From positions 1 to 60,276 of the forward strand of contig JAIXRO010000169.1 in the NCBI GenBank assembly GCA_027485145.1: a stretch of DNA of 60,276 nt. The letters run 5' to 3'. Made by a program: the position numbers and the translations under genes. Below are positions 3,658 through 58,587 of the stretch, in pieces. The notes beneath the pieces are model-generated. The model searched no databases and was not told the DNA's origin. It worked only from the letters and a program-made list of their open reading frames with translations. Every line of letters begins with the position of its first letter. Position 1 is the stretch's first letter. This DNA is from Hyphomonadaceae bacterium. Lineage in GTDB: Bacteria > Pseudomonadota > Alphaproteobacteria > Caulobacterales > Hyphomonadaceae.

Positions 3658-4370
3658 TGCCCAATGGCATTTACCCCTCCCTGACGCGCCAGCACGGTCT
3701 GATGCAGGAAATGCAGGTCGTCGCGAACAATCTCGCGAACTCCAGCACAACGGGCTACAAGTCCGACCGCGCGATCTTCGCGGAGTTTCTGGTGCGGGCC
3801 GGCACCTCCCAGGAATCGGTTTCCATGGGCGGGCTCGCAGGACACGCGTTCCAGTTTGAACAAGGCGAGCTGAACTTCACGGGCGGTCAGTTTGACCTCG
3901 CGGTGCAGGGCGATGGCTTCTTCGTGCTGCAGACGCCCCAAGGCCCGCGGCTCACCCGGGCCGGACACTTCCAGCTGTCGGCCGCCGGCACGCTGGTGGA
4001 CGGCATGGGCAACAGCGTCCTCGGGGCAGGGGGCAATCCGATCACGATCCCCGTCGACGCCGCTGCGATCTCGATTGGCAGCGATGGCTCGATCTCCGCG
4101 GGCGGCCAGCTTGTGGACAGGATCGGTGTTGCGATCGCCGATGGCCAGCTCTTGCGGGACTCCAATACGATGTTCTCCGCCCCGGATGGCTATGCGCAGT
4201 TTGAAGAAGCCACGGTCGTGCAAGGCGCGCTCGAGCAATCGAATGTGTCGCCCGTCCTGGAAGTGGCTCGCATGATCGAAGTGCAGCGCGCGTATGAAGC
4301 GGGCCAGTCCATGCTGGAACGCGAAGACGATCGGATCAACCAGCTGATCAATGCCGTACGCGAGCGCTGA
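3657..4370 (+). CDS. flgF: Flagellar basal-body rod protein FlgF
   Basis: Proximal rod component assembled in the periplasm. 237 residues, close to the family's usual length. The N-terminal rod signature is clear (QMQVVANNLANSSTTGYK, residues ~17-34), as is the D1 motif around LAVQGDGFFVLQTPQGPRLTRAGHF. The C-terminal helix ends EVARMIEVQRAYEAGQSML, typical of the FlgE/F/G family. The chosen ATG lies in the TGATG junction with the preceding gene; an upstream in-frame ATG at 3426 would fall wholly inside that gene. FlgG follows after 27 bases. Confidence 0.93.
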   Translation: MPNGIYPSLTRQHGLMQEMQVVANNLANSSTTGYKSDRAIFAEFLVRAGTSQESVSMGGLAGHAFQFEQGELNFTGGQFDLAVQGDGFFVLQTPQGPRLTRAGHFQLSAAGTLVDGMGNSVLGAGGNPITIPVDAAAISIGSDGSISAGGQLVDRIGVAIADGQLLRDSNTMFSAPDGYAQFEEATVVQGALEQSNVSPVLEVARMIEVQRAYEAGQSMLEREDDRINQLINAVRER

Positions 4371-4397
4371 GATGTGTATTGAAATGAGGAAGAACCC

Positions 4398-5183
4398 ATG
4401 AAGTCCTTGCAGATTGCCGCTTCCGGGATGGCCGCGCAGCAGACGCGGGTCGATGTCATCTCGAACAACATCGCCAACATGAGCACGGCGGCTTACCGCC
4501 CGCGAACGGCTGAGTTTTCAGACCTCATGTATCAGCAATACCTTACGCCCGGCACAATCACCTCGCAGACCGGTACCGTAGTCCCGGCCGGGATCCAGAT
4601 CGGCACAGGGGTGCGCCCGTCGACCGTCTCGATGGAGATCACGCAAGGCGCGCTTCGCCAGACCGATGCCGAACTTGATCTCGCGATCGATGGTGCAGGG
4701 TTTCTCGAGCTCACGCTTCCGTCCGGCGAGCCCGCCTACACGCGCGACGGCAAGCTCAACCGCAGCCCGACCGGTGAAGTGGTGACGATGGACGGTTTTC
4801 CGCTTGCGGACGGTATCGTCATCCCGGAAGACGCCCGCCGGATCTCGATCAGCCGAGACGGCGAAGTGGTTGCCTACTTCGCGGATGGGACGGAAGGGCA
4901 GTCGATCGGTACGATCTCGCTCGTTCGCTTCGTCAACGAGAAAGGGCTCGAAGCGTTGGGAGACAACATGTTCCGCGAAACCGAAGCGTCCGGTCCTGCC
5001 AACCGGCTCGTTCCGGGTACGGAAGGCGTTGGCTTCATTCGCCAGGGTTTCCTGGAAGACTCCGGAGTGGATGTGGTCAAGGAAATCGCCGATCTCATCG
5101 AAGCGCAGCGCGGATACGAACTCAACTCCAAGGTCATTACCGCATCGGACGAGATGATGGCCGCAACAACGAGAATGAGGTAG
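4398..5183 (+). CDS. flgG: Flagellar distal rod protein FlgG
   Basis: 261 residues, the standard FlgG length. The N-terminus reads MKSLQIAASGMAAQQTRVDV, then SNNIANMSTAAYR. The centre has LAIDGAGFLELTLPSGEPAYT, and the C-terminus has DVVKEIADLIEAQRGYELNSK followed by ITASDEMM. These N- and C-terminal helices pack into the coiled inner tube of the rod. The start is preceded by GAGGAAG. FlgA follows four bases after the stop. The order flgF-flgG-flgA-flgH is usual in alphaproteobacteria, although flgI is missing here. Confidence 0.96.
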   Translation: MKSLQIAASGMAAQQTRVDVISNNIANMSTAAYRPRTAEFSDLMYQQYLTPGTITSQTGTVVPAGIQIGTGVRPSTVSMEITQGALRQTDAELDLAIDGAGFLELTLPSGEPAYTRDGKLNRSPTGEVVTMDGFPLADGIVIPEDARRISISRDGEVVAYFADGTEGQSIGTISLVRFVNEKGLEALGDNMFRETEASGPANRLVPGTEGVGFIRQGFLEDSGVDVVKEIADLIEAQRGYELNSKVITASDEMMAATTRMR

Positions 5184-5187
5184 CGCC

Positions 5188-6299: not shown

Positions 6300-6311
6300 G
6301 AAACCATCCTT

Positions 6312-6911
6312 ATGAAGAACATCATTGCTGCGGTCATCGCGATTGTCTGCATTCTCGCAGGCGGGGCAGGGGGATATTTTCTCCGCTCGATGTCGGGCGG
6401 CGAAGCCTCGGCCGAATCCCACGGCGAAAAGCCCGCCAAGAAAGACCACGCCGAGAAGGACGAGAAGAAAGACGATCACGCCAAGAAACCGGACAAGAAG
6501 GACTCTCACGGCAAGGAGAGCAAAGACAGTCACGGCAAGGAAAGCAAGGGCGGGCATGGCAGTGACGAAGCGGCCGGTTCCGGCGAAGGCGTTGTCTACT
6601 TCAAGTTCAGCCGGGAGTTTATCGTCCCCATCATCCGTCAGGGCCGCGTTGACAGTCTGGTGATCCTCAACCTCAGCCTTGAAGCGGATTCCTCAATTGG
6701 CCAGAAGCTGTTCGAGATGGAGCCGAAGCTGAGGGACAACATCATGACGACGCTGATCACCCTAAGCAATGACGGAACCACGTTCGAGTCCATGACGGAT
6801 GTCGAGAATTACGAAACGATCCGCAGCATGGTGCTGATGAACCTTCAGTCCGTGGTGTCGACGGGCATCGAGAACGTGCTGATCATGGATCTTGCCAAGC
6901 AGGAGATCTGA
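6312..6911 (+). CDS. fliL: Flagellar basal body-associated protein FliL
   Basis: Single-pass inner-membrane protein that rings the stator and boosts motor torque. 199 residues. The transmembrane helix is at ~4-24 (IIAAVIAIVCILAGGAGGYF). A periplasmic stomatin-like FliL domain starts near residue 95 (VVYFKFSREFIVPII) and ends in LMNLQSVVSTGIENVLIMDL. The linker between them (about 33-86) is unusually rich in Lys, Asp, Glu and His, with repeated SHGKES units. It is last in the operon; fliP, which often follows fliL, is not here. Confidence 0.9.
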   Translation: MKNIIAAVIAIVCILAGGAGGYFLRSMSGGEASAESHGEKPAKKDHAEKDEKKDDHAKKPDKKDSHGKESKDSHGKESKGGHGSDEAAGSGEGVVYFKFSREFIVPIIRQGRVDSLVILNLSLEADSSIGQKLFEMEPKLRDNIMTTLITLSNDGTTFESMTDVENYETIRSMVLMNLQSVVSTGIENVLIMDLAKQEI

Positions 6912-6959
6912 GGCAGATCAAGGTTGACTGGCCCTGCGGACCGTCAGCCCGTCGCCACA

Positions 6960-7622: not shown

Positions 7623-7632
7623 GGGTCTGTTC

Positions 7633-9171: not shown

Positions 9172-9193
9172 AAGGCTTCCATTCGTCGTCCTG

Positions 9194-9208: not shown

Positions 9209-9289
9209 CCCCGCGCCGTAAAATATGCGTTAATCGAAGTCGCTATTCTGGTAACTTCGTAGACGGATGATTTCCGGGGAGAGACTTGC

Positions 9290-9607: not shown

Positions 9608-9987
9608 TGAACTCTTACTTCAAAGACCCGGTCTTTGCCCGGCTCGCGGATGTGCTTGAGCAGGAGAAAGCGCTTCTCCAATCGGGCAGGGCAGCCGAGG
9701 CGGCATCCCTTATCGGTGATAAAATGCGCGCGCTTCAGGATTTTGAGGCCAATATCGAGATCGACGGTGAACTCGGCGCGCCATTGCAGAAACGCCAGGC
9801 GATCAAAAAGATTGTTCAGATGGCGGAAGAGAACGCGGCGCACATGGATGCGATCCGCAATGGTCTCCGCCATGCCATCCGGCGGTTGGAAAGCTTGAAT
9901 GATTCGGCGTTTGTGGGATCCTACGGCCGCGGCGGCGCCCAGCTTTCATTTACGAATGCAACCGGCAGTTACAATCGAAAGGGCTGA
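9607..9987 (+). CDS. FlgN-like flagellar chaperone
   Basis: 126 residues, almost entirely helical and charged: an EQEKALLQSGR helix, a QKRQAIKKIVQMAEENAAHM helix, and a C-terminal GSYGRGGAQLSF tail followed by NATGSYNRKG. The size, long coiled helices and position after flgJ and before flagellin fit a FlgN-type export chaperone for FlgK/FlgL. The family is very divergent, so the name rests on shape and context. A TTG three bases upstream could also start it; the ATG abutting the flgJ stop is preferred. Confidence 0.55.
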   Translation: MNSYFKDPVFARLADVLEQEKALLQSGRAAEAASLIGDKMRALQDFEANIEIDGELGAPLQKRQAIKKIVQMAEENAAHMDAIRNGLRHAIRRLESLNDSAFVGSYGRGGAQLSFTNATGSYNRKG

Positions 9988-9993
9988 ATTCGA

Positions 9994-12257: not shown

Positions 12258-12260
12258 GCC

Positions 12261-15895: not shown

Positions 15896-17974
15896 ATGCT
15901 GGATTCGAAGCCTTATGGCGGCCTGACCAACCCGACCTCGCTGCTGGCGATCGGCCTGATGGTGGTCATCCTGTTCATGATCCTGCCGATGCCGGCCTGG
16001 GTCATCGATATTGGTCTGACCGTGTCGTTTGCGCTGTCGATCCTGATTTTCACGACGGTGATCTTCGTCGAGAAACCGCTCGATTTCTCCTCCTTCCCCA
16101 GCATCCTGCTCGCGACGCTGATCCTGCGCTTGGCGCTGAACGTCGCCTCGACCAAGCTGATCATCGGGCAGGGGCACACAGGTACCGACGCCGCCGGGCA
16201 CGTGATCGAGGGCTTTGCCATGTTCGTCATGGGCGGCGAGTTGTTCGTGGGCCTCGTTGTGTTCGCCGTGCTGATGATCGTGAACTTCATGGTGATCACC
16301 AAGGGCGCCGGCCGCATGGCAGAAGTGGGCGCGCGCTTCGCCCTCGATGCCATGCCCGGCAAGCAGCTGGCGATCGACTCCGACCTTGCCGTCGGCGCCA
16401 TCACTCATGAGGAAGCCAAGGCCCGCCGCGCGCGGGAACAGGAAGAGGCCGCCTTCCTCGGCTCGCTCGACGGTGCTTCGAAGTTCGTGAAGGGCGATGC
16501 GATTGCGGGCCTGCTCATCACGGCGCTGAACCTTGTCGCCGGCATGGGCTTTGGCCTGATGGTGCACGGCCTCAGCTTCAACGAAGCGCTTCAGAACTAT
16601 TCGATCCTCACAGTGGGTGACGGCCTCGTCACGCAAATCCCGGCCGTGATCGTCTCGATTTCAGCCGCGCTCCTCCTGTCCAAGGGGCGCGAAGAAGGCG
16701 CCATCGACCGTGCGATTGGCCTTCAACTCGGCGCAAGCTCGACACCGCTGCTGATTGTCGGCGGTGTGATGGCGGTCTTCGCCTTCCTGGGTCTTCCCTT
16801 CATCCCGTTCATGACAGCGGCCGTTGGCTTCATCTTCGCGTCCTTCCTCATCCGCAAGGAGGAAAAGCGCAAAGCCGAGGAGAAGGCCAACCCTGCACCC
16901 TCCACCGCGCCCAAGGTCGTCAAGATCGGGGACTCGATCTATTCGGACGAAATCCACCTCGAAGTGGCGCCGGACCTCGTTGGCCTCGTTCTGGTCGGCG
17001 AAAACGGCTTCGAAAGCCGGATCGACAAGATCCGCCGCTACATCGCGGAAGAATACGGCTTCGTGCTGCCGCCGATCCGCATGACCGACAATCCGACACT
17101 GAAGAAGAACGAGTATCGCATCCGGATTCAGGGCGTGCGGCTCGATTCCGGCTTCCTGCGCCCCGGGAATGTGCTGGCCCTGATCGAAGAAAACCAGCTA
17201 CCCCACCTTCAAGGCGAAAACGTCCGCGAGCCGGTTTACAAGGCTGCGGCGCGCTGGCTGCCGAATGGCAAGAAACAGGAACTTGCGGCCGGCGGCATTC
17301 CGGTCGTCGAGCCGATGGAAGTGCTCGCCACGCACATGCTGGAAGTCATCCAGGCCAACTTCTCGCTCGTCTTTACCCGGATGGTGATGGTCGAGACCCT
17401 CGAATCCCTGAGCCGGATCACCGACACCGACCGCGCCGCCGCCAACCAGCGTTTCCTCGACGAATACATTCCCGGCAAGGTCACTCCGGAAGTCCTTCTG
17501 TCCGTGCTGCGCCTTCTTCTGGCCGAACGGATTTCGATCCGTAACCTGTTCCTGATTGTCGAAACCATTGCCGAAGTGAAGGCCCAGAACCTTGGCCTGC
17601 CGCGGATTGTCGAACTCGTGCGCCAGCGACTCGCGTTCCAGATCGTCGACAGGCTGCAGGACGACCAGGGCCGCCTGCCGCTCGTGCAGCTTTCCGCGAC
17701 CTGGGAGCAGAAGTTCTCGGAGTATGAAATCAACGGGGAAGGCGGCAGCGCCGACATCGCACTACCGCCTGAACTGTTCGGTGAGCTGATCAATGCCATT
17801 CAGGGGAAACTGAATGAAGTGGCCCAGAAGGGGATCGTCGCGGCTGTCGCGACCACATCGCGGCGCCGCCGCTTCCTTCAAACCGTCCTCGCCAGCAAGG
17901 GCATCCGCAATGCGGTTGTCGCCTATGAGGAAATCAGCGCCCGCAGCAAGCCGTACATTATCGGCGTTGCGTAA
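15896..17974 (+). CDS. flhA: Flagellar export gate protein FlhA
   Basis: 692 residues, normal for the family. About eight membrane helices occupy residues ~15-320. The FHIPEP region includes PSILLATLILRLALNVASTK and a gating loop with GDAIAGLLITALNLVAG. The soluble C-terminal domain (~350-690) forms the nonameric substrate-docking ring: YIAEEYGFVLPPIRMTDN, LFLIVETIAEVKAQNLGLPR, and LVQLSATWEQKFSEYEI. Its last base is the first base of fliR (TAATG). Confidence 0.97.
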   Translation: MLDSKPYGGLTNPTSLLAIGLMVVILFMILPMPAWVIDIGLTVSFALSILIFTTVIFVEKPLDFSSFPSILLATLILRLALNVASTKLIIGQGHTGTDAAGHVIEGFAMFVMGGELFVGLVVFAVLMIVNFMVITKGAGRMAEVGARFALDAMPGKQLAIDSDLAVGAITHEEAKARRAREQEEAAFLGSLDGASKFVKGDAIAGLLITALNLVAGMGFGLMVHGLSFNEALQNYSILTVGDGLVTQIPAVIVSISAALLLSKGREEGAIDRAIGLQLGASSTPLLIVGGVMAVFAFLGLPFIPFMTAAVGFIFASFLIRKEEKRKAEEKANPAPSTAPKVVKIGDSIYSDEIHLEVAPDLVGLVLVGENGFESRIDKIRRYIAEEYGFVLPPIRMTDNPTLKKNEYRIRIQGVRLDSGFLRPGNVLALIEENQLPHLQGENVREPVYKAAARWLPNGKKQELAAGGIPVVEPMEVLATHMLEVIQANFSLVFTRMVMVETLESLSRITDTDRAAANQRFLDEYIPGKVTPEVLLSVLRLLLAERISIRNLFLIVETIAEVKAQNLGLPRIVELVRQRLAFQIVDRLQDDQGRLPLVQLSATWEQKFSEYEINGEGGSADIALPPELFGELINAIQGKLNEVAQKGIVAAVATTSRRRRFLQTVLASKGIRNAVVAYEEISARSKPYIIGVA

Positions 17975-19811: not shown

Positions 19812-20155
19812 GGCGCAACTTGGCCCGTCAGAAAGATGTGCTGAAGAAGATTGTCGCGCTCAAACGCCAGAGCGCCGAGCAGCGGCTGCTCGTGCTGCAG
19901 ACAGATGCGGAGCGCATCGAGGCTGCCATCCGGCAGCTGCGTGCCGGCCTCGCAGCGATGGATACCGCGGGCGCCGGCTTCGACGCCTTGTGCCTCGCCG
20001 AACAGAACGGTCATGTGCGCAAGATCATCAGCGACATCAGGACCGCCCAGGACGCACTCGCGCTCAAGCAGACAGAGGTGTTCGACGCGCGTGAAGCGCT
20101 GAAGCGCGCCTTCCATTCCGAAAACCGGCTCGGCGAGATCACGGCAAAGGGTTAG
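19808..20155 (+). CDS. FliJ-like flagellar export protein
   Basis: 115 residues, all helix and coiled coil: VLKKIVALKRQSAEQRLLVLQ, ERIEAAIRQLRAGLAAMD, and a last helix SDIRTAQDALALKQTEVFDA. The size, coiled-coil character and end-of-operon position fit FliJ, the stalk-like partner of FliI that links the ATPase to FlhA. FliJ proteins are too divergent to confirm by motif. The GTG start overlaps the flhB stop. Confidence 0.6.
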   Translation: MRRNLARQKDVLKKIVALKRQSAEQRLLVLQTDAERIEAAIRQLRAGLAAMDTAGAGFDALCLAEQNGHVRKIISDIRTAQDALALKQTEVFDAREALKRAFHSENRLGEITAKG

Positions 20156-20178
20156 GGCAGGGGCGCTCTGGTCATCGG

Positions 20179-34121: not shown

Positions 34122-35090
34122 TTAAGCATGATGCTCCAGCGACCGGGCTGCAAGCTTGGATTCCACAACGTCCCAGAATTTGGCAGTCGCATCAATGCCC
34201 GACAACCGCTTGAGGGCCTGCAGACCGGTTGGTGATGTGACATTGACCTCGGTCAGGCGTCCGCCAATCACGTCGATGCCGGTCAGCACCAGCCCGCGCC
34301 GTTTCAGTTCCGGACCGATGCGCGCGCAGATAAGTCTGTCGGCGGCTGACAGTTCCGTCGCCTCGGCCGTGCCGCCGACGACGAGATTGGAGCGCACCTG
34401 TCCGGCCTTTGGCTTGCGGTTGATGGCGCCCACCGGCTCACCGTCGATCAGGATGACGCGCTTGTCCCCGTCCGCAACCGCCGGGAGGAAGGCCTGAACC
34501 ATCACGGGCTCGCCCGACCGGCCAAGGAACAGTTCCAGCAGGGAATCGAGGTTTGAGTCGTCGGCCGTCAGCCGGAACACGCCCGCGCCGCCATGCCCAT
34601 AGAGCGGCTTCACGATGATATCGCGGTGTTTCTCGCGGAAGGCATCAATGACGCCCCGGTCGCGCGTCACCAGCGTGGGCGGCATGATGTCCGGAAACAT
34701 CAGCGGAAAGATCTTCTCGGGGCTCGAGCGCACACCGGCCGGATCGTTCAGCACCAGCGTCTGGCCGGACACTTCCTCCAGCAGATGGCACGCCGTGATA
34801 TAGCCCATGTCGAAGGGCGGATCCTGACGCATCAGGATCACATCGGTATCCTTGGCCAGGTCCAGGGTCCGCGCCTCGCCGAACACGCCGGGCGTCCCGG
34901 GCACGCGTTGCACGCGGGCAGGGCGTGCGCGGGCCGTCACGCGGCCTTCCGTCCAGGCGAGATCGCCCGGGCCATAGACGAAGATTTCATGACCGCGCGC
35001 CTGGGCGGTCTCGGCAAGGGCGAAGGTCGTATCGCCGTCGATGTTCACCCGCTCGAGCGGGTCCATCTGAATGGCTATGCGCAGTGTCAC
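34122..35090 (-). CDS. gshB: Glutathione synthetase GshB
   Basis: 322 residues from GTG at 35090, giving the family's N-terminus VTLRIAIQMDPLERVNIDGD. ATP-grasp landmarks are ILMRQDPPFDMGYITACHLLE, LVLNDPAGVRSSPEKIFPL, KPLYGHGGAGVFRL, QAFLPAVADGDKRVILIDGEPVGA, GQVRSNLVVGG, and TGIDVIGGRLTEVNVTSPTG. It joins gamma-glutamylcysteine to glycine with ATP in the cytosol. The two glutathione transferases of this window would use its product. Longer frames upstream would overlap the BON gene. Confidence 0.95.
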   Translation of the reverse strand: MTLRIAIQMDPLERVNIDGDTTFALAETAQARGHEIFVYGPGDLAWTEGRVTARARPARVQRVPGTPGVFGEARTLDLAKDTDVILMRQDPPFDMGYITACHLLEEVSGQTLVLNDPAGVRSSPEKIFPLMFPDIMPPTLVTRDRGVIDAFREKHRDIIVKPLYGHGGAGVFRLTADDSNLDSLLELFLGRSGEPVMVQAFLPAVADGDKRVILIDGEPVGAINRKPKAGQVRSNLVVGGTAEATELSAADRLICARIGPELKRRGLVLTGIDVIGGRLTEVNVTSPTGLQALKRLSGIDATAKFWDVVESKLAARSLEHHA

Positions 35091-37169: not shown

Positions 37170-38465
37170 ATGCCAAGCGGAGGAATGTGGCGCATCTACG
37201 GGCCGGTGATCCTGATCGCTCTGGCGGGGTTTATCCTGACCCTCTTCCTGATGGATCCGGCGCCGCCGAAGAAGATCCGGTTCGGGGCAGGGGCGCAGGG
37301 CGGCGCGTACCATGCCTACGCCGAGCGCTATCAGCGCCTGCTTGCCGAACAGGGCGTCGAAGTCGAACTCGTCGATACCGCCGGCTCGATCGACAATCTG
37401 CGGCTGCTGGAAGATGACTTTCTCGATGTCGCGCTGGTGCAGGGCGGCCTGTCCGGCATCACCGAGCGCAAGCAGCTTCGCTCGCTCGGCGGCCTGTTCG
37501 AGGAGCCTTTCTGGGTCTTTGTCCGGTCAGATCTCGCCGTTGAGAATTTCGGCGACCTGAAAGACCTGCGCGTCTCCATTGGCCCCGAAGGATCGGGCAC
37601 ACGTGCGCTGGCGACCATCCTTCAGTCCGAATATGGCGGCGACTGGTCCGAAAGCGCGCGCGCAGCGCTGGCCAGCGCGGACGCCGAAGCGGCCCTGCGC
37701 AAGGGTGAACTGGATGCCGCGGCATTCGCGGCCTCGCCGCAGGCCCCGTATGTCCAGTCACTTTTGCGGGCCGAGGGCATCCGGCTGCTGCCCTTCGACC
37801 GGGCCGAAGCCATCGCGCGGCGAACCGATGGTCTGTCCTCGGTCACGCTCCTGCGCGGTATTGCCGATGTCGGCGCCGACATTCCGGCAAGCGATGTGCC
37901 GCTGTCGGCCGCCGTCGCCCAACTCGCCGTGCGCAGCGACACCCACCCGGCGATCGAAGCCGTGCTGCTCGATGCCGCGACCGCGATCCACGCCGAACGC
38001 AGCCTCTTTGCGCCCGCCGGCCGGTTCCCGAATGTCCAGAATGCCGACTTGCCGGTCAGCGCCCAGACGACGCGGTTCTACCGCGATGGCCCGTCCTTCC
38101 TGAGACGGTACTTTCCGTTCAGCGTTGCGAACTTCCTTGACCGGGCCTGGGTGCTCGCGATTCCGCTCCTGACACTGGCCTTCCCGCTCGTGCGCGCCGC
38201 CCCGCCGATCTATCGCTGGCGCGTCCGGCGCCGGATCTACGTCTGGTACAAGGACCTGCGCGCGCTGGAAGACGAGGGCCGCGCGACCCCGCCGGGGGAT
38301 CCCCGCGTGTCGGTGATCAGCCGGCTCGAACAGCTGCAGGCCGATATCGGCCAGCTGGACGTCCCGCTCTCCTATACGGACGACTTGTATCGCCTGCGCG
38401 GCCATGTCGAGTTCGTGAAACAATTGCTGCGCACGGCGCCGGTCGAGACAGCGGCGATCGCCTAG
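37170..38465 (+). CDS. Membrane-anchored TAXI-family solute-binding protein
   Basis: 431 residues from the ATG at 37170 (AGGAG nine bases upstream); an ATG at 37143 is in frame but has AAGGA touching it. Order: a membrane helix (~9-30), a TAXI/TRAP periplasmic binding domain (FGAGAQGGAYHAYAERYQRLL; DTAGSIDNLRLLEDDFLDVALVQGG; VSIGPEGSGTRALA), a second helix near 330 (WVLAIPLLTLAFPLVRAAPPIY), and a basic, probably cytosolic ~95-residue tail. No TRAP permease gene is nearby, so it may be a sensor or orphan binding protein and not part of a transporter. Confidence 0.75.
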   Translation: MPSGGMWRIYGPVILIALAGFILTLFLMDPAPPKKIRFGAGAQGGAYHAYAERYQRLLAEQGVEVELVDTAGSIDNLRLLEDDFLDVALVQGGLSGITERKQLRSLGGLFEEPFWVFVRSDLAVENFGDLKDLRVSIGPEGSGTRALATILQSEYGGDWSESARAALASADAEAALRKGELDAAAFAASPQAPYVQSLLRAEGIRLLPFDRAEAIARRTDGLSSVTLLRGIADVGADIPASDVPLSAAVAQLAVRSDTHPAIEAVLLDAATAIHAERSLFAPAGRFPNVQNADLPVSAQTTRFYRDGPSFLRRYFPFSVANFLDRAWVLAIPLLTLAFPLVRAAPPIYRWRVRRRIYVWYKDLRALEDEGRATPPGDPRVSVISRLEQLQADIGQLDVPLSYTDDLYRLRGHVEFVKQLLRTAPVETAAIA

Positions 38466-40011: not shown

Positions 40012-41181
40012 ATGAAAAACATCACGGCAATCGCGGCGCTGTCATTGCTCGCAGCCTGCCAGTCGCCAGCGGAGATACCGCTGATCGGCGATGCCTTCGC
40101 GCCGAAAACCGCGGAAGATGCCCTCGAGCCTTACTACCGCACGCTGCCGGACGATTTCTTCCCTTATGCGCCGAAGGGTCCTGTGCTTCCGGCGGCCGAC
40201 GCCGTGCTGACGCGCATTCTGGTGGGCTCGTGCCTCGACGAGGAAAAGGGCGACAGCGCCACGCTGCGCACGATTGCCGCCCAGCAGGCCGACCTGTTCC
40301 TGATGATCGGCGACAACGTCTATGGCGACAAGGACGGACCCGCCAACATCAACAACCAGCCGGAACTCGACGAGCTGCGCGCAAGCTTCCGCGACCTCGC
40401 CGCGCGGGAGGATTTCAAGGCCGTGCGGGCGAAGTTCCCGATGATGGTGGCCTGGGACGACCATGATTACGGCGCCAATGATGCGGGCAGGGGGTTCGTC
40501 TTCAAGCGGCTTGCCGAGCGCATCCATGAACGGTTCTGGGGTCTCGATGACAAGGATGTCGGCGCTTATCCGGGCACCTATTACGCGCGCACGTTTGGCC
40601 CCGAAGGCCAGCGCACGCAGGTGATCGTGCTCGACACGCGCTTCTTCCGGTCCAACCTGACGCCGACCGACGAATGGAACAAGAAAGGCAAGGAGCGCTA
40701 TATCCCCTCCGCTGATCCCGAGCAGGACATGCTGGGCAATGACCAGTGGACCTGGCTGGAAAACCGGCTGCAGGACCCCGCCGACGTGCGCCTGATCGTC
40801 TCGTCCATCCAGGTCCTGCCGACCGATGGTCACGGCTTCGAGGCCTGGGCCACGCTGCCGAAGGAACAGGCACGCCTCTACAACCTCGTGCGCGAAACCG
40901 AGGCCAAGGGCGTCGTGTTCGTGTCGGGCGATCGCCACACGGCGTTCCTCTACAAGGACGAGGCAGCGCTGCCTTACCCGGCTTACGAGTTGACCGCGTC
41001 TTCGATGAACCTCTCCTTTGCGGAGACTTCGGCCGAGATGGACAAGGCGCAGCTCGGAGAGGGGTACCCGCCCGAGAATTTCGGCGCGATCGGAATCGAT
41101 TGGGCGGCGGGCACCGTCAGCCTCGAGGTGAAGTCGAACACCGGCGAGACCGTGCGCCAGGCGACCACGACCTTCCGTTGA
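40012..41181 (+). CDS. PhoD-like phosphatase/metallophosphoesterase lipoprotein
   Basis: 389 residues from the ATG at 40012 (GAGGAGG upstream). The lipoprotein signal ends SLLAAC with Cys at 16. PhoD-like metal-site motifs are LVGSCLDEEKG, LFLMIGDNVYGD, AWDDHDYGANDAG, VIVLDTRFFRS, and FVSGDRHTAFL. The family hydrolyses phosphomonoesters or diesters with calcium and iron. Anchoring in the outer membrane or periplasm is expected. An MFS carrier follows 13 bases after the stop. Confidence 0.85.
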   Translation: MKNITAIAALSLLAACQSPAEIPLIGDAFAPKTAEDALEPYYRTLPDDFFPYAPKGPVLPAADAVLTRILVGSCLDEEKGDSATLRTIAAQQADLFLMIGDNVYGDKDGPANINNQPELDELRASFRDLAAREDFKAVRAKFPMMVAWDDHDYGANDAGRGFVFKRLAERIHERFWGLDDKDVGAYPGTYYARTFGPEGQRTQVIVLDTRFFRSNLTPTDEWNKKGKERYIPSADPEQDMLGNDQWTWLENRLQDPADVRLIVSSIQVLPTDGHGFEAWATLPKEQARLYNLVRETEAKGVVFVSGDRHTAFLYKDEAALPYPAYELTASSMNLSFAETSAEMDKAQLGEGYPPENFGAIGIDWAAGTVSLEVKSNTGETVRQATTTFR

Positions 41182-41194: not shown

Positions 41195-42436
41195 ATGTCG
41201 GGCTACCGGAATGTGATCACGCTGATCTTCGCGATCTGCCTGATGCAGGCGGCTGCGAGCTTTCTTGGCGTCATCACACCGGTCGGGCTGACCGAACTGA
41301 AGGCCGGTGAAGCGCTCACCGGACTGATCGGCGCCGTTTACTCGGCCGGTTTCATGGCGGGCGCCTGGGCCGGGCCGGCCTTGCTCGGCCGCTATGGCAC
41401 CATCCGGCTCTATGCGGCCGCGGCGGCCGTCACTGCGGTGTGCGCGCTGGTCATGGGCATGGTGCCTGGCATTGCAGCCTGGGGCGCAGCGCGTGTGATG
41501 CAGGGCATCGGCTTCGGCCTGTTGTTCGCCAGCGCCGAAAGCTGGCTCGGTCATGCCACACCGAGCGACCGGCGCGGCGACGTCATGGGGTTCTATTACT
41601 TCCTCTCGCGGATCGCCGGCATGCTCGCCCCGTTCCTCGCTTTCGGGCTGTCGGCGCTCGATCCGCGCGGCCTCAGCTGGGTGTCGATCCTGCTTTGCCT
41701 GTCGCTCGTCACGCTCTGCCTGACGCGTCAGGAGGAGCCAGCCCCGCCCGCGCGCGAGGTGATGAATCCGGTCGATCTGTTCCGGCTCGCGCCCTCGGCG
41801 GTGACCGGGTGTTTCCTGGCCGGACTTCTCAACACCGGCACGCTGGCCCTTTTGCCCACCTGGACCAGCACGTTTTCAATCGGCGGCGGTGGCACGGCGG
41901 CGGCGGCCTGGGCGGCGGCCGCGGCCGCAGGCGGCGCGCTTCTGGTCCAGTGGCCGGCCGGGCGGATTTCCGACCGGGTGGAGCGGCGGATCGTGGTCGC
42001 GGTGCTGTCCCTGTTCTCGGGCGCTGCGGCGCTCGCCCTCGCGGCCGGTGGCACGCGGTTCAGCGAGCCGGCGGTGCTCGCCTTGCTGTGCCTTTGGGGG
42101 GCAGGGGCGTTTGCGTTTTACGGTGTGTGCGCTGCCCATGCGATCGACCGCGGCGGCCCGGGGCGGATTCCGCAAGTGATGAGCGGCATCCTGTTCGTCT
42201 GGGCAGCAGGCTCGGTGATCGGCCCGGTACTCTCGGGCGTCGCGATGAGCCTCGGCGGGCCGCAGGCCCTTTTCGGGGTGGCCGCGTTCGGTCTTTTCCT
42301 GCTGGCCGGGATCATGCTTGTGCGCAGCCGCGTGCGTCCGGCGCCGGTGCCGATGGCCTCGGACGGCTTCATGCCCGCGGAGGCCACATCCTCCACCTTG
42401 GCCAATCCCGACGCGCGGCAGGCCGGGCAAACATGA
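41195..42436 (+). CDS. MFS transporter (YcaD/UMF-like)
   Basis: 413 residues, 12 membrane helices. Landmarks are LIFAICLMQAAASFLGVITPVGL, IGAVYSAGFMAGAWAGPALLGRYG, ARVMQGIGFGLLFASAESWLG, and GFYYFLSRIAGMLAPFL. These recall the YcaD family of MFS carriers of unknown substrate. A Gly/Ala-rich insertion lies between helices 6 and 7-8. It is likely cotranscribed with the upstream phosphatase, which hints at import of a dephosphorylated product, but this is only contextual. Confidence 0.8.
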   Translation: MSGYRNVITLIFAICLMQAAASFLGVITPVGLTELKAGEALTGLIGAVYSAGFMAGAWAGPALLGRYGTIRLYAAAAAVTAVCALVMGMVPGIAAWGAARVMQGIGFGLLFASAESWLGHATPSDRRGDVMGFYYFLSRIAGMLAPFLAFGLSALDPRGLSWVSILLCLSLVTLCLTRQEEPAPPAREVMNPVDLFRLAPSAVTGCFLAGLLNTGTLALLPTWTSTFSIGGGGTAAAAWAAAAAAGGALLVQWPAGRISDRVERRIVVAVLSLFSGAAALALAAGGTRFSEPAVLALLCLWGAGAFAFYGVCAAHAIDRGGPGRIPQVMSGILFVWAAGSVIGPVLSGVAMSLGGPQALFGVAAFGLFLLAGIMLVRSRVRPAPVPMASDGFMPAEATSSTLANPDARQAGQT

Positions 42437-47913: not shown

Positions 47914-49440
47914 ATGTCAGACATTGTTGTTCCCACACTCGGCGAAAGCGTTACCGAAGCGACGGTCGGCCGGTGGCTGAAGGCGAAGGGCGACACCGTC
48001 AAGAAAGACGACGTGCTGGTCGAACTGGAAACCGACAAGGTCTCCGTCGAAGTCTCGGCGAGCGAGGACGGCGTATTGTCCGATATCTCGGTGCCGGAAG
48101 GCGAGACGGTTGGCATCGGGGCCCTCCTTGGACGGATCAATGGGGCAGGGGCCGCTGCTGCGAAACCCGTTGCGCCGGCCGCGGTGGCAGCGCCCGCAGC
48201 CCCCGCACCGGCTGCCGCACCCGCTGCGGCGCCATCGCCCGCGGGCGGTGTGACGGACGTGAAGGTTCCGGTGATGGGCGAGAGCGTCGCCGAGGGCACC
48301 ATCGCCTCCTTCAGCAAGAAGGTCGGCGACAAGGTGTCGAAAGACGAGACGATTGCCGAGATCGAAACCGACAAGGTCGCCCTCGAAGTCCCGTCGCCGG
48401 CCGATGGCGTGATCCTTGAGCTGCTGGTCCAGCCGGGCGCCAGCGTGGCGCCGGGTTCGGTGATTGCGCGGATCGGCGCCGCGGGTGCGGCGCCCGTAGC
48501 AACGGCTCCCGTCGCAGCGCCGCCCAAGCCGGTCGCTGTGCCCGCCGCCGCCACCGGCGCGGATCGCCCCGTGGCGCCCTCCGTCCGCCGCATTGCCTCC
48601 GAGGCAAATGTCTCGCCCGCCGCCATTCCCGGGTCCGGCCGTGATGGCCGCGCGACCAAAGCCGACGCCCTTGCTTACGTGAACCAGCCGAAAGTCCCTG
48701 CCATGCAAGATACCCAGCTGCGCCCGCCGCGCGAGACCGGCCCGCTTGAAGAACGTGTACGGATGACGCGCCTGCGTCAGACGATCGCCCGCCGCCTCAA
48801 GGAGGCGCAGGATTCGGCCGCGATGCTGACGACGTTCAACGACGTCGACATGTCCGCCGTCATGGACCTGCGCAAGAAACACCAGGACGCCTTCGTCGCC
48901 CGCCACGGTATCAAGCTCGGCTTCATGAGCTTCTTCGTGAAGGCCGTCACGGGCGCACTCAAGGAAGTGCCGGCCGTCAATGCCGAGATCGACGGTCAGG
49001 ATATCATCTACAAGAACTACTATGACATCGGCGTCGCCGTCGGCACCGACAAGGGTCTCGTCGTGCCGGTTGTGCGCGGCGCCGATTCGATGTCGCTCGC
49101 CGATGTCGAGAAGGAAATCGCCGGTCTCGGCAAGAAGGCCCGCGACGGCGCGCTCACCATCGGCGACCTGCAGGGCGGCACCTTCACCATCTCCAATGGC
49201 GGCATCTATGGCTCGCTGATGTCCACGCCGATTCTCAACCCGCCCCAGTCCGGCGTGCTCGGCATGCACCGGATCGAGGACCGCCCGATTGTCCGCGCCG
49301 GCCAGATCGTCATCCGCCCGATGATGTATCTCGCGCTCAGCTACGATCACCGGATCGTCGACGGCAAGGAAGCCGTGACCTTCCTCGTGCGCGTCAAGGA
49401 AGCGCTGGAAGATCCGGACCGGATGCTGCTGGAAGTCTAG
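47914..49440 (+). CDS. sucB: 2-Oxoglutarate dehydrogenase E2 component, dihydrolipoamide succinyltransferase, with two lipoyl domains
   Basis: 508 residues; most OdhB/SucB are ~400. Two lipoyl domains are present, with lipoyl lysines at 42 (LETDKVS) and 154 (IETDKVA), joined by Ala/Pro linkers. A peripheral-subunit-binding domain lies near 220-260 ([27 protein letters not shown]). The catalytic domain has [26 protein letters not shown] and the [13 protein letters not shown] active site (His, Asp). It moves succinyl from E1 to CoA. The E3 gene (lpd) does not follow. Confidence 0.96.
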
Positions 49441-51617: not shown

Positions 51618-53537
51618 ATGAACGAAGACTATTCCTTGCGCTCTTCGGGCCGGGACGACCTAGCACGCCATCAGGCGTCTCAGAACTATGAGATGGCCCG
51701 GCATGGCGGCGGTTGGATGGTTGCGGCGTCGGCCATACTCGCCGCGCTCTGGATTGGCGGTCTGGTATTGGGTTTCATCGCGCTCGGTGGTCCGGCTCTC
51801 GCGGCGCAGTTTTCCCCGCTGATCCTCGCTGCGGCCGGTATTGCCGCCATCATCCCCGCCGGCCTGATCCTCATGGCCGGCTTCATGGGTCGCTCCAGCC
51901 GCCGCGCCGCCGCCGCCAATGCGCTCGTGCTGGAGGCGGCCTCCCGTCTCATGGCGCCCGCCCGTGAGGCTGGCACCGAGGGCATCGCCTTTGCCGAACA
52001 GATGAAGCAGGCCGCCAGCGAAATCGACCGTGCGATGGAGCTGGCGATGATCGCCATGCGCGAGATGGCCGGCGAAATCAATGACGAACGCCTGCGCCTT
52101 GAATCGGTCTCCTACGCGACGTCCGACAATGCCCGCGACCTGTCGGTCCGGCTGGCCGCCGAGCGTCAGGCACTGGAGGCGCTCGCCCGCGAACTGCGCG
52201 GACAGATCAGTACGATGAGCGAAGCGATTCCGCGCCAGGCACAGCTGATGGTGTCCGCCGCGCGTCAGGCGAGCGAAGAAGTCGGACGCGCGGACACTGC
52301 GCTCGAAGCCCGGCTCGGCTCCATGGGGCGGGCAGGGGAAGATCTGACCCGCCGGCTCGAAGCGCTGGACGGCCTCGCCCGCGAAGCGGCCACGCGGACC
52401 GAAACGCTGACCTTCGCGATCACGCGCGTCGAGGACAAGCTCGAACACTCCCGCCGCACCGTGGACGCCGCCGTGCGCGCCAGCGAAGTCGCCGCCACCG
52501 CCGCCAACTCGACCGGCGAAGCGTTGAAGGGGGCGGTCGCCACCGCGATCGAAGGCGCCCGGCAAGCCAATGCCGAAATCCATGCGACCACGCGCGGCGC
52601 CGCCGAGGAAGCCGCGCGCGCCCTCTCCCGCCTGCGTGAAGCGGGCGAACAGGCGGCGTACGCGCTTCGCACGGCCAGCTATGCGGCCCGGATCGAAGGC
52701 GAGAATCTCGAGCGCCGCACGGGAATCGCGGCCCCCGAACCGGCGCCGGTCCTGCCGGCCGCGCCTGTGCGTCCCAGCATTTCTCCGCCGCCGTCCGAGT
52801 ATTCGAACGGTCACGCGGCGCCGGGCCATGCGCCGGTCTATGCGAACGGCAATGGTCACGCGGCCCGGCATGCCAACGGCCATGGCGGCGATCCTCCCGG
52901 CATCGCGCCCAGCCGTGCCTTCCTCGACGATGACCTGTTTGAGGCCAGCGCGGAGGCCGTGATTGCGGCCACCGTTACGCCGGACACGGAGGATGCGCCG
53001 CTGGTGCTCGGCCGCGAAACCTCCGCGCGCGACGGAGAGCCGCTGATGCTTCGCCGGCGGCACGAAGACCCGCCCGCTGCGCCGGGCACCGCGCCGCGCC
53101 GGCGCGCGAGCGATCATCTTTCCGGAGGCGCCGCCAACGGCTCCGCGCTGCGCGACATCATTTCCGACATCACGCGCGAAGAGACCGGCGATGTCGATGA
53201 AGACCGCGAGCATATCGCCGAAACCATCGTTGCCCGGCTCGAATCCGCCGGCATTCCGCTCGGCGAGGTCTTCCGTCCACGGTCAAAGCGAAAGATCGCA
53301 GCCGCCAACCAGAAAAGCAACGCCTCCCGCCGGGATGCGATCCGCGATCAGGCGCGCAAGGAAGTCGAGCGCGTCGCGCACCGCCTGCGCAGTGACGCGA
53401 AGCTGATGGGCACGGCGCGGCGGTTCGCCGAGCTCGAGAAAGCCGATGCGCTCGTCGCGCTCGCACAAACGCAAAGCACCAGCCGCAATGCCAGCGCGCG
53501 CCTTGCCGCTTTCCTGCTGGTGGACGCGGCGCTCTGA
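51618..53537 (+). CDS. Two-helix coiled-coil membrane protein, TipN-like polarity factor candidate
   Basis: 639 residues from the ATG at 51618. Two N-terminal membrane helices (~33-53 and ~66-90) are followed by about 300 residues of Ala/Glu/Arg-rich coiled coil (AERQALEALARELRGQISTM; GRADTALEARLGSMG). A Pro/His/Asn-rich disordered stretch (~400-440) comes next. A conserved-looking C-terminal domain (~540-639) has AETIVARLESAGIPLGEVF and a RMxRDE-like basic helix DAIRDQARKEVERVAHRL, ending ARLAAFLLVDAAL. Caulobacter TipN, which marks the new pole and positions the flagellum, has the same topology. The name is a hypothesis. Confidence 0.55.
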   Translation: MNEDYSLRSSGRDDLARHQASQNYEMARHGGGWMVAASAILAALWIGGLVLGFIALGGPALAAQFSPLILAAAGIAAIIPAGLILMAGFMGRSSRRAAAANALVLEAASRLMAPAREAGTEGIAFAEQMKQAASEIDRAMELAMIAMREMAGEINDERLRLESVSYATSDNARDLSVRLAAERQALEALARELRGQISTMSEAIPRQAQLMVSAARQASEEVGRADTALEARLGSMGRAGEDLTRRLEALDGLAREAATRTETLTFAITRVEDKLEHSRRTVDAAVRASEVAATAANSTGEALKGAVATAIEGARQANAEIHATTRGAAEEAARALSRLREAGEQAAYALRTASYAARIEGENLERRTGIAAPEPAPVLPAAPVRPSISPPPSEYSNGHAAPGHAPVYANGNGHAARHANGHGGDPPGIAPSRAFLDDDLFEASAEAVIAATVTPDTEDAPLVLGRETSARDGEPLMLRRRHEDPPAAPGTAPRRRASDHLSGGAANGSALRDIISDITREETGDVDEDREHIAETIVARLESAGIPLGEVFRPRSKRKIAAANQKSNASRRDAIRDQARKEVERVAHRLRSDAKLMGTARRFAELEKADALVALAQTQSTSRNASARLAAFLLVDAAL

Positions 53538-54584: not shown

Positions 54585-56018
54585 ATGCGCCAGTTCCCCG
54601 CCTTCTTTAACCTCGAGGGCGCCCGCATCGTGGTGTTCGGAGACGGCGACGAAGCGGCGCGCAAACTGCGCCTGCTGGTGACCTCGCCGGCCGAGCTGGT
54701 CCTTGTGGGTGGATTTGCAGATCCCGCGCTCGCGGCAGAGTTTGCCGGCCGCCTTGTCACGATGGACCGGCCCCGGATGGACGAGGCGCTGGAGCGCGCG
54801 CGCCTCGCCATCATCGCCGAAACGGACGAGGTCCGCCGCGCCGAGGCGCTCGCCGCCGTCCGCGCACGCCGGATTCCCGTGAACGTCGTGGACCAGCCGG
54901 ACGCCTGCGATTTCACGGTCCCCTCGATCCTCGACCGGGACGAGATCGTCGCCGCCATAGGGTCCGGCGGCGCAGCGCCTGTGCTCGCCAAGGCCGTGCG
55001 CGCGAAACTCGAAGCGCTGCTGCCGGCCCGGATCGGCGAACTGGCGGCGCTGGCCCGGCGCCTGCGTCCGTTCGTGTCGGACGCCGTCCCGGACAAGTCC
55101 GCCCGCCGCCGCTTCTGGGAACGTGCGCTGACCGGCCCCGCCGCCGAGGCTGCCTACGCGGGCGATCTGGCGAAGGCCGAAGCGCTGCTGAAGTCCGAAG
55201 CCCAGGCCAGCGCCCGGGCGGACGGTGTCGTGCACATCGTCGGGGCAGGGCCCGGCGATCCCGAACTCCTGACGCTCAAGGCCCTGCGCGTGTTGCAGGA
55301 GGCGGACGTGGTCTATTTTGACCGGCTGGTCGGCCCCGGCATCCTCGACCTCATTCGCCGTGATGCGGCGCGCGTGCCGGTTGGCAAATCGAAGGGCGAC
55401 CATTCTGTTCCGCAGACGGAGATTCATCACCGTCTGATCGCGTCGGCGCGGGAGGGCCTGCGCGTCGTGCGCCTGAAAGGCGGGGACCCGTTCATTTTCG
55501 GGCGCGGCGGCGAGGAGCTGGAAGCGGTGCGCGCGGCGGGTATTGCCGTGCATATCGTGCCCGGCATTTCGTCCGCTCTCGGATGTGCCGCCTCGGCCGG
55601 CGTGCCGCTGACACACCGCGATCATGCCCAGACGCTGACCTTCGTCACCGGTCATGCGAAAACCGGCGGTGTGCCGGATCTTGACTGGGCTGCGCTGGCG
55701 CGCCCGGCGCAGACGGTGGTCGTGTTCATGGGCGTCGATACCGCTCCGGCAATTGCCGAACGCCTGATCGCAGCCGGGCGCAACCCGCGCACGCCGATTG
55801 CGGTCGTCGAAAATGGCACCCGGCCGGAGGAGGTGCGCGTCTATGGTGAATTGTCGGAACTGCCGTCCCTGATTCTGGAGGAAGGCATCACCGGTCCGGC
55901 GCTTCTGATCATCGGTGAAGTCGCCGGCATTCCGCTCACCAGTGTCCGGATCAGCCAGTTCCTGCCAGCCGAAAGCGCGGCTACGCCGCGTCTCCCAGCC
56001 TTGGCCATCGAGGACTAA
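54585..56018 (+). CDS. cysG: Siroheme synthase (CysG: dehydrogenase/ferrochelatase plus uroporphyrinogen-III methyltransferase)
   Basis: 477 residues from the ATG at 54585; a TTG nine bases upstream is in frame. The N-terminal precorrin-2 dehydrogenase/ferrochelatase half has FFNLEGARIVVFGDGDEAARK, in which the usual GGG NAD loop reads GDGDE, and PVNVVDQPDACDFTVPSI. The C-terminal SUMT half has VHIVGAGPGDPELLTLKALR, VVRLKGGDPFIFGRGGEE, PGISSALGCAASAGVPLTHRD and VFMGVDTA. It makes siroheme for the sulfite reductase of the same operon. Confidence 0.95.
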   Translation: MRQFPAFFNLEGARIVVFGDGDEAARKLRLLVTSPAELVLVGGFADPALAAEFAGRLVTMDRPRMDEALERARLAIIAETDEVRRAEALAAVRARRIPVNVVDQPDACDFTVPSILDRDEIVAAIGSGGAAPVLAKAVRAKLEALLPARIGELAALARRLRPFVSDAVPDKSARRRFWERALTGPAAEAAYAGDLAKAEALLKSEAQASARADGVVHIVGAGPGDPELLTLKALRVLQEADVVYFDRLVGPGILDLIRRDAARVPVGKSKGDHSVPQTEIHHRLIASAREGLRVVRLKGGDPFIFGRGGEELEAVRAAGIAVHIVPGISSALGCAASAGVPLTHRDHAQTLTFVTGHAKTGGVPDLDWAALARPAQTVVVFMGVDTAPAIAERLIAAGRNPRTPIAVVENGTRPEEVRVYGELSELPSLILEEGITGPALLIIGEVAGIPLTSVRISQFLPAESAATPRLPALAIED

Positions 56019-56328: not shown

Positions 56329-56936
56329 TCCGCATCTTTGGCGACAGCATCTCGGGCAATTGCCTGAAAGTGAAATGGGTGGCCGAGCGCCTGGGCCATG
56401 CCCATGAATGGATCGAGATCGACATCCTGAAGGGCGAGACGCGCACCGATGCGTTCCTCGCGCTGAACCCGTTCGGGCAGGTGCCCGTCGTCCAGTTCGA
56501 TGATGGCCGGACGCTCTCCCAGTCCAACGCGATCATCCTGCACTTTGCCGAAGGCTCCGACCTCATCCCGGCGGACGCCTTCGAGCGCGCCAAGATGCTG
56601 GAGTGGATGTTCTGGGAACAGTATTCGCACGAGCCGACCATCGCCGTGCGCCGGTTCCAGAAGCATTACCTCAAACTGTCCGACGACGCGATTGATGCCG
56701 ACCTGATGGCCAAGGGCCGCCGCGCGCTGGGCCGGATGGAGATGGCGCTGATCTCCAGCGATTTCATCGCGGGCGGCGCGGCGATCACGCTCGCCGACAT
56801 CGCGCTGCTCGCCTACACGCGCATGGCTCACGAAGGCGGTTTCGACCTGACCGAGTTTCCGGCGGTGCATGCCTGGGTCGCGCGCTGCGAGCTTGAACTT
56901 GGCCTGCCGCACCTGCATGAGGTCACGCATGTATAG
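56325..56936 (+). CDS. Glutathione S-transferase family protein inside the cys operon
   Basis: 203 residues. Thioredoxin-like N-domain with IRIFGDSISGNCLKVKWVAERLG, LALNPFGQVPVVQFDDGRTLSQSNAI (the cis-Pro and glutathione-binding QSNA). The helical C-domain has FIAGGAAITLADIALLAYTRMAHEGGF. It overlaps DUF2849 by four bases and cysI by eight bases, so it is fully embedded in the operon. This is not a standard member of cys operons. It may use glutathione to handle sulfite or thiosulfate-type intermediates, which is speculation. Confidence 0.9.
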   Translation: MIRIFGDSISGNCLKVKWVAERLGHAHEWIEIDILKGETRTDAFLALNPFGQVPVVQFDDGRTLSQSNAIILHFAEGSDLIPADAFERAKMLEWMFWEQYSHEPTIAVRRFQKHYLKLSDDAIDADLMAKGRRALGRMEMALISSDFIAGGAAITLADIALLAYTRMAHEGGFDLTEFPAVHAWVARCELELGLPHLHEVTHV

Positions 56937-58587
56937 ATATGATCAGTTTGATGCCCGCCTCGTCGCCGAGCGCGTGGCGCAGTTTCGCGGCCAGGTCGAG
57001 CGGCGCCTGTCCGGCGCGCTGACGGAAGACGAGTTCAAGCCGCTGCGGCTTCAGAACGGCGTGTACCTGCAGCTGCACGCCTACATGCTGCGCATCGCGA
57101 TTCCCTATGGCCAGCTCTCGCCGCGCCAGTTGCGGCGCCTTGCCGAAATCGCCCGTGACCATGACCGGGGCTTCGGCCATTTCACGACGCGCCAGAACAT
57201 CCAGTTCAACTGGGTCGCGCTCAAGGATATCCCGGAAGTGCTGGCGAAGCTCGCGGACGTCGAGATGCATGCCATCCAGACCTCGGGCAACTGTATCCGC
57301 AATACGACCACGGATCATTTTGCAGGCGCCGCGCAGGACGAAGTCGTCGATCCGCGCGCCTGGTGCGAGATCATCCGGCAGTGGAGCACGTTCCATCCGG
57401 AATTCGCGTTCCTGCCGCGCAAGTTCAAGATCGCCGTGACGGCCGCCGAGCATGACCGCGCTGCGATCCGGGTGCACGATGTCGGCCTGCATATCCGCCA
57501 GAAGGACGGCGTCACCGGTTTCGAAGTGCACGTCGGCGGCGGGCAGGGGCGCACGCCGCACATTGCCGCGCTGGTCAACCCGTTCGTGCCGGAGACGCAG
57601 ATCCTCGATTATCTCGAGGCGATCATGCGGGTCTATAACCGCTACGGCCGGCGCGACAACAAGTACAAGGCGCGGATCAAGATCCTCGTCTCGGAGCTTG
57701 GCGAGGCCGAGTACATCCGGCAGGTCGAGGCGGAATTCGCAGCGCAGCGGGACGCCGAGAAAATTGATCTGCCCGCGGCAGAGGTGGCGCGCATCCATGC
57801 CTATTTCGCCCCTCCCGCGCTCGCGCCGAAGCCTGCACTTTCGAAGCCGCTCGAAGCGGCCAAGGCGGCCGACCCGGCCTTTGCCCGCTGGACGCGCGCC
57901 AACCTGCATCCGCACAAGGTGGCTGGTTATGCTTCCGTCACGGTCAGCCTGAAGCCCCTTGGCGTGGCGCCGGGCGATGCGACGGATGCCCAGATGGAAC
58001 TGGTCGCTGACCTTGCTGAAAAGTACGGGTACGGAGATATCCGCGTCAGCCATGCGCAGAATCTAATCCTGCCGCATGTTGCGCTGGACGACCTTCCGGA
58101 CGTGTACAAGGCGCTCGACGCCGCCGGCCTCGGCGCGGCCAACGAGAGCCGGATCACCGACATGATCGTCTGCCCGGGGCTCGACTATTGCAACCTTGCC
58201 AATGCGCGCTCGATCCCGGTGGCGCTGGCCGTGCAGAAGGTCTTCGCCGATCCGGCCTATGAGGAGGATATCGGCAAGCTGCACATCAACGTGTCCGGCT
58301 GCATCAATGCCTGCGGCCACCACCATGTCGGGCATATCGGCATCCTCGGCGTGGACAAAAAGGGAGAGGAATTCTACCAGATCCTCCTGGGCGGGCGCGC
58401 CGACGAGAAGGCGGCGCTCGGCGAAATCGTGGGGCCCGGCCTCAAGGCCGAGGACGTGCCCGCCGCGATTCACCGGGTCGTCGAATTCTACCGGACCCAG
58501 CGCAGCTCGCCGTCCGAAAAGTTCATCGACACGCTGGAACGCCTCGGCCATCAGACCTTCCAGGAGGCCCTGTATGCCGCTGGTTAA
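56929..58587 (+). CDS. cysI: Nitrite/sulfite reductase hemoprotein (CysI-like)
   Basis: 552 residues from the ATG at 56929, inside the end of the gst gene. Two siroheme-reductase repeats: FGHFTTRQNIQFNWVALKDIPEVL and QTSGNCIRNTTTDHFAGAA in the first; YGDIRVSHAQNLILPHVALDDL in the second. The [4Fe-4S]-siroheme ligands are C415, C421 (CPGLDYC), C458 and C462 (GCINAC). It reduces sulfite to sulfide, with ferredoxin or an NADPH flavoprotein as donor; no cysJ is nearby. Confidence 0.95.
   Translation: MYRYDQFDARLVAERVAQFRGQVERRLSGALTEDEFKPLRLQNGVYLQLHAYMLRIAIPYGQLSPRQLRRLAEIARDHDRGFGHFTTRQNIQFNWVALKDIPEVLAKLADVEMHAIQTSGNCIRNTTTDHFAGAAQDEVVDPRAWCEIIRQWSTFHPEFAFLPRKFKIAVTAAEHDRAAIRVHDVGLHIRQKDGVTGFEVHVGGGQGRTPHIAALVNPFVPETQILDYLEAIMRVYNRYGRRDNKYKARIKILVSELGEAEYIRQVEAEFAAQRDAEKIDLPAAEVARIHAYFAPPALAPKPALSKPLEAAKAADPAFARWTRANLHPHKVAGYASVTVSLKPLGVAPGDATDAQMELVADLAEKYGYGDIRVSHAQNLILPHVALDDLPDVYKALDAAGLGAANESRITDMIVCPGLDYCNLANARSIPVALAVQKVFADPAYEEDIGKLHINVSGCINACGHHHVGHIGILGVDKKGEEFYQILLGGRADEKAALGEIVGPGLKAEDVPAAIHRVVEFYRTQRSSPSEKFIDTLERLGHQTFQEALYAAG

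Follow-up and report, generated by a model that had tools for sequence, protein, structure and literature searches.

The FtsK-orienting polar sequences (KOPS) of Escherichia coli and Vibrio cholerae, with the consensus GGGNAGGG, represent the closest described system to the element addressed here. The octamer GGGCAGGG is read by the Vibrio FtsK and serves as KOPS in E. coli (PMC2533119). In E. coli, a review gives KOPS a density of one per 13 kb and describes a rise in density toward dif, which is not part of the definition of the word (PMC5357621). This report concerns a stretch of 60,276 nucleotides, referred to as a whole as the window, which covers positions 1 to 60,276 of contig JAIXRO010000169.1 in the draft genome of a Hyphomonadaceae bacterium (GCA_027485145.1). 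The window holds 16 copies of GGGCAGGG, all of which fit the KOPS consensus, and these octamers are very probably KOPS, that is, polar sequences orienting the septal DNA translocase FtsK. The locus adds a new and very clean case to a system already described, and leaves a single modest puzzle, which concerns the protein that would read the word.

Polar words of this kind have a broad distribution. In alphaproteobacteria, KOPS of the form GGGNAGGG polarised toward dif have been reported in Azorhizobium (PMC2443382), in Agrobacterium (PMC12153318), and across several genera, on chromosomes and large replicons alike (PMC13342612). The SpoIIIE recognition sequences (SRS) of Bacillus subtilis, read by SpoIIIE and SftA, and the KOPS of Lactococcus are likewise polar and direct pumps of the FtsK/SpoIIIE family, the Lactococcus words being A-rich heptamers (PMC5357621). 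Hyphomonas neptunium is a stalked, budding alphaproteobacterium, for which FtsK has been raised as a possible motor of the second chromosome segregation step (PMC6650430); the word dif has no match in the available passages of that paper.

The present system resembles that of E. coli and V. cholerae in the octamer itself, its leading-strand polarity, the switch at dif, the FtsK gamma domain and a pair of XerC/D-like recombinases. The octamer differs from the A-rich heptamers of Lactococcus and probably from the SRS word of B. subtilis. The reports from alphaproteobacteria describe the same GGGNAGGG polarity, in other genera, and their available passages do not name Hyphomonas (PMC2443382, PMC12153318, PMC13342612). 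The word is denser here than in E. coli, at one copy per 7.6 kb in the draft genome and one per 3.8 kb in the window, which is thus about twice as dense as its own genome, against one per 13 kb (PMC5357621). Additional differences from E. coli and V. cholerae are a strong preference for C at position 4 and the lack of a density rise toward dif, both in the reference congener G015, and two changed residues in the FtsK gamma domain. By analogy with the E. coli model, the FtsK of this organism would bind GGGCAGGG. Its gamma domains would read the word on the strand running from origin to dif, the motor would assemble on one side of the site and would then pump solely toward dif, where XerCD would resolve chromosome dimers.

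Strand bias in the window and in the draft genome

A recount of the window gives 16 exact copies of GGGCAGGG on the plus strand and none on the minus strand, with first bases from 4024 to 57541 and a mean spacing of 3.57 kb, in agreement with an earlier model-made reading of the letters (the sequence-only reading), which had given the same counts and one copy per 3.5 kb. That reading had also expected about three copies per strand from composition, which was too high, as dinucleotide-preserving shuffles of the window yield 3.8 over both strands, or about 1.9 per strand; the maximum was 14, and none of 100 shuffles reached 16. In a ranking of the window octamers by strand asymmetry, GGGCAGGG stands at the top, although the plus strand has no net G excess (19179 G against 19437 C).

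The draft genome of the organism comprises 3.98 Mb in 223 contigs and contains 253 forward and 272 reverse copies of GGGCAGGG (525). The word read backwards, GGGACGGG, has the same composition and serves as a control; it occurs 87 and 102 times (189), so that GGGCAGGG is 2.8 times commoner. A two-armed chromosome in randomly turned contigs is expected to give equal strand totals, and equal counts genome-wide, which the sequence-only reading had named as a refutation, are therefore no refutation for a draft. Among the 100 of the 525 matches that were listed, 62 of 67 neighbouring pairs on one contig share a strand.

We take the genus of the window to be Hyphomonas, and family f1 of the genome search to be Hyphomonadaceae, from the names of the assemblies. 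Among the best 80 loci, the FtsK fragment of the organism shares 98% identity with an assembly that bears the label Hyphomonadaceae bacterium and 93% with one that bears the label Acidobacteria; for several Hyphomonas sp. assemblies the identity is 80 to 84%.

Polarity at predicted dif and at the inferred origin in relatives

The reference congener G015 is a single contig of 3,705,021 bases, with a predicted dif core at 1,856,936. Within 200 kb on each side of this site, 39 of 40 copies on the left lie on the plus strand and 27 of 28 copies on the right lie on the minus strand, and the switch falls between -1173 and +5371 bases from predicted dif. With both arms turned toward dif, the ratio is 66:2, the first rank of 57,016 octamers. 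Stretches sampled farther out remain polar, at 35:2 on one arm (220 kb) and 29:3 on the other (180 kb). An apparent flip in the opposite sense falls between 3,694,726 (minus) and 3,704,536 (plus), approximately opposite dif if the contig is circular, and this is taken as the inferred origin; no independent origin marker was found there, and the copy at 3,704,536 is itself counted among the three exceptions of the 29:3 arm. The gene dnaA was considered as an origin marker for G015 and dropped, being about 0.56 Mb from the flip.

The same switch is seen in other relatives. In the 40 kb centred on predicted dif, the copies run three plus then three minus in G018, four plus then one minus in G004, two plus then one minus in G060, and two plus followed by three minus and one plus in G019. 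The more distant G034 carries, on its contig C2, 29 plus and 2 minus copies up to 189,154 and, from 197,005, at least 15 minus copies and no plus copy, with a dif-like site at 190,930-190,957. In G081, which belongs to another family, the ratio is 36:0, the switch falls between -1497 and +3549, and GGGCAGGG ranks second of 49,836 octamers.

In the five Hyphomonas dif sites that were read, the XerD side is TTATGGGCAAT or TTATGGGAAAT, so that dif itself contains the opening five letters of either the KOPS word or its A variant. A looser dif core has at least one match in all 24 sampled congeners and none in the draft of the organism. A pattern for dif in which the XerD arm was E. coli-like was dropped, as it gave no match in the organism's genome and was present in 2 of 41 genomes. 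A change from plus to minus on its contig C50, at 6.6-19 kb, was also considered as dif and rejected; no dif-like site lies there, the change depends on one plus copy, and the 56-80 kb part of this contig aligns beside the inferred origin of G015. By alignment, the part of C50 that bears ftsK corresponds to about 3.68 Mb on G015, no more than approximately 30 kb from the inferred origin, which would place the pump gene near the origin. The draft also contains two dnaA genes of different kinds, at C42:4-1272 and C179:415-1749 (model positions 1-411 and 1-434), where five congeners have one match each that covers most of the model; C42 may be a contaminant contig, the assembly being rated 4.62% contaminated.

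Synteny with G015 gives the position of the window. Its mutS matches G015 at 290,546-293,110 (plus), where the inferred origin is about 0.3 Mb away and dif 1.57 Mb, and in the 60 kb around this gene G015 has 12 plus copies and no minus copy. The window thus appears to lie on one chromosome arm near the inferred origin, with left to right leading to dif, which fits the proposal of the sequence-only reading that the window belongs to a single replichore running left to right toward the terminus. The strand predicted from the arm is found for all 16 copies in the window and, on two further contigs of the organism that align with sampled stretches of G015, for 17 of 18 on C50 (first 80 of 92 kb) and for 5 of 5 on C16; the G015 stretch matching C16 has one plus and one minus copy only. 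Regions matching the window in other congeners are similarly one-sided, with 1 plus and 11 minus copies in G018, 12 and 1 in G004, 0 and 16 in G019 (60 kb each), and 1 and 9 in G011 (40 kb). The block that holds mutS in G019 is inverted with respect to its neighbour, yet all 16 copies in the 60 kb, including one inside the block, share a strand; the word follows the arm and not the gene.

The individual sites come and go while the polarity persists. Across five congeners, window copies have a counterpart within 60 bases in only 3 of 24 comparisons, in which the same copies are counted repeatedly, and 16 of the 18 copies found in blocks aligned to the window point the same way as those of the window.

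Other explanations of the skew

The skew could be a by-product of gene direction and codon use, since most genes of the window lie on the plus strand and the octamer would fit their preferred codons. Called coding amounts to 41.7 kb on the plus strand against 8.4 or 11.3 kb on the minus strand in two gene sets. These calls are approximate, being made by a simple codon-usage script, and cover 83% of the window in the first set and 88% in the second, in which Pfam-supported genes were forced in because the first had wrong calls near fliK. The null permutes synonymous codons inside called genes, keeping the protein and the codon counts. Shuffles of the first set do yield more copies on the plus strand than on the minus (means of 3.30 and 1.42), but their plus maximum is 8 and none of 2000 reaches 16; with the corrected genes the plus mean is 2.31, the maximum is 7 and none of 1500 reaches 16. 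The skew thus survives the protein-preserving shuffle that the sequence-only reading had proposed as a check. Additionally, two plus-strand copies sit inside minus-strand genes, one (9684..9691) in a fliK-like gene at 7633-9873 and one (34916..34923) in the glutathione synthetase gene gshB at 34122-35360, and a third (20155..20162, plus) begins at the last base of the stop codon of the open reading frame (ORF) at 19808-20155. The copies in gshB and across a gene end had been pointed out before, with the argument that gene direction alone does not explain the skew, and both the placements and the argument hold. In G015 the gene strands are nearer balance: called coding on the leading and the opposite strand amounts to 93.6 and 69.7 kb for one dif arm, and to 81.9 and 92.7 kb for the second. 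Of the dif-pointing copies, 14 of 39 and 11 of 27 lie in genes called on the opposite strand, and the observed 39:1 and 27:1 exceed all 200 shuffles per arm, which give means of 16.2 (maximum 24) and 9.6 (maximum 19). Within the approximate gene calls, the shuffles and the G015 arms refute this explanation, to which we give next to no weight.

A general excess of G on the leading strand, arising from replication mutation bias and without selection for a protein-binding word, would also make G-rich words polar. Many G-rich words in G015 do lean the same way, such as GGGCGG at 502:218, and this bias contributes to the pattern. It is rejected as the main cause, and as such is very improbable, because the window is without net G excess, GGGCAGGG stands first in G015 at 66:2 and exceeds its same-composition reversal in the organism's own genome, and its one-base variants are rarer and less polar. 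The octamer might instead belong to some other system whose polar words share this geometry, for example as a Chi-like recombination signal; Chi-like words have a leading-strand bias and would flip at the origin and the terminus too. The near-total skew, the switch within a few kb of dif and the encoded FtsK gamma domain argue against such a signal, and this very word is one that the Vibrio FtsK has been shown to read and that serves E. coli as KOPS (PMC2533119). The chance that it belongs to another system of this geometry is slight in the extreme. The identification of the octamers as KOPS, put forward by the sequence-only reading, is upheld by the survival of codon shuffling, the flip at predicted dif and the apparent flip at the inferred origin in G015, and the synteny of the window.

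Several observations weigh against this identification. The dif sites of the relatives are pattern matches, and hence predicted sites. The exact dif core has no match in the 223-contig draft of the organism, where no flip is seen, so that the change of sign expected at dif and the origin stands in the relatives, at predicted dif and inferred origin in G015, and not in the organism's own assembly. The expected rise in density toward dif failed to appear in G015, where the 400 kb around dif contain 68 copies and the stretches sampled elsewhere, also 400 kb, contain 69, and the near-origin window has about twice the density of its own genome. The G015 shuffle means are sizeable, such that part of the count, though not all, comes from composition and codon use, and G-rich words leaning the same way in that genome, for example GGGCGGGG at 45:7, indicate that the excess is partly compositional. 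Among the copies in aligned blocks, 2 of 18 point in the opposite direction, one in G019 and the other in G011. On contig C1 of G034 the strands are more mixed, with 39 minus and 12 plus copies among the 51 matches listed. In G045, a relative with 43.5% GC, the word is sparse, at 5:1 near dif and rank 5471 of 62,599. Finally, at the positions of E. coli N1296, R1300 and E1303, alignment and spacing give N, G and D in the gamma helix of the organism, so that two of three residues are changed.

The reader protein and the genes that carry the copies

The genome encodes an FtsK gamma domain (PF09397 at C50:68049-68231, E 4.1e-27, above the cut-off). Two XerC/D-like matches over model positions 2-290 are present in each of seven genomes of the genus; all fall below the TIGR02225 cut-off, and the recombinases are named by similarity only. 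In E. coli, alanine substitutions at R1300 and E1303 of FtsK gamma impair the reading of KOPS (PMC2680272).

The asparagine is kept in all 125 gamma helices read (45 and 80, in sets that may share organisms). Among the 45 loci, all 3 from the window's genus have G at the R1300 position and all 12 others of the family have S or T; of the 30 loci that represent other families of the class, 27 have R. The loci are the best-scoring Pfam matches, taken from 15 of 31 genomes in the family and from 30 of 58 in the class, where 50 had a match, and the count of R may consequently lean to the family consensus. Among the 80 loci nearest to the organism's own FtsK, the position holds T in 31, S in 30, R in 11, G in 6, and K and L in one each.

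The word itself is more constant. GGGCAGGG outnumbers its reversal in all 41 genomes of one set (the organism's own and 40 relatives) and in 50 of 52 further genomes (of 83), the exceptions being G075 and G090. With one added to each count, the median ratio of word to reversal is 3.5 in the window's genus (25 genomes pooled as one class, the helix read in only 3), 4.4 with S (9 genomes), 2.8 with T (4) and 2.4 with R (27, of which one has a ratio below 1). This comparison omits 12 of the 52 genomes, 10 with the helix unread and 2 with K or L. The word is therefore not lost along with the arginine. A different motif where the reading helix differs was considered and set aside; by eye, G015 (G, D) and G081 (R, E) have broadly similar one-base preferences. 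In one class relative (G086), GGGCAGGG occurs 345 times against 40 for its reversal (8.6-fold) and no FtsK gamma domain was found in the 91% complete draft, perhaps owing to an assembly gap.

The word is old, and part of its reader has changed. We regard it as an even call that the FtsK of Hyphomonas reads the canonical KOPS via a rewired gamma helix, with the code resting on the kept asparagine and other contacts; if so, conservation would be stronger in the DNA word than in the protein that reads it. A constant word set against a changed reading helix provides a natural test of which FtsK contacts matter. With these sites, a genus of budding, stalked bacteria would join those with a dif-centred guidance map for FtsK, which bears on whether FtsK acts in the second chromosome segregation step of H. 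neptunium, a question raised earlier (PMC6650430). The polarity of GGGCAGGG also represents a simple means to orient draft Hyphomonas contigs.

The remaining 13 copies of the window, all on the plus strand, are distributed among genes of varied function. From the left, they lie in a plus-strand flagellar gene of the FlgE/F/G family (4024..4031), a plus-strand gene with a weak FliL match below the Pfam cut-off (6364..6371), a flhA-like (FHIPEP) gene (16166..16173), a transporter gene of the major facilitator superfamily (MFS; 25786..25793) and mutS (28996..29003). The copy at 32643..32650 is in a plus-strand hydrolase-like gene overlapped by a minus-strand ORF, whose glyoxalase domain lies to the left of the copy. 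Farther along are copies in a plus-strand NMT1-like gene (37285..37292), a PhoD-like phosphatase gene (40485..40492), an MFS transporter gene (42099..42106), a 2-oxoacid dehydrogenase acyltransferase gene (48143..48150), an ORF at 51570-53537 without a Pfam match (52330..52337), a cysG-like gene (55243..55250) and a nitrite/sulfite reductase gene (57541..57548). The left third of the window, at 3426-17974, carries flagellar genes, of the FlgE/F/G family and of FliL-like, FliK-like and FlhA-like type.

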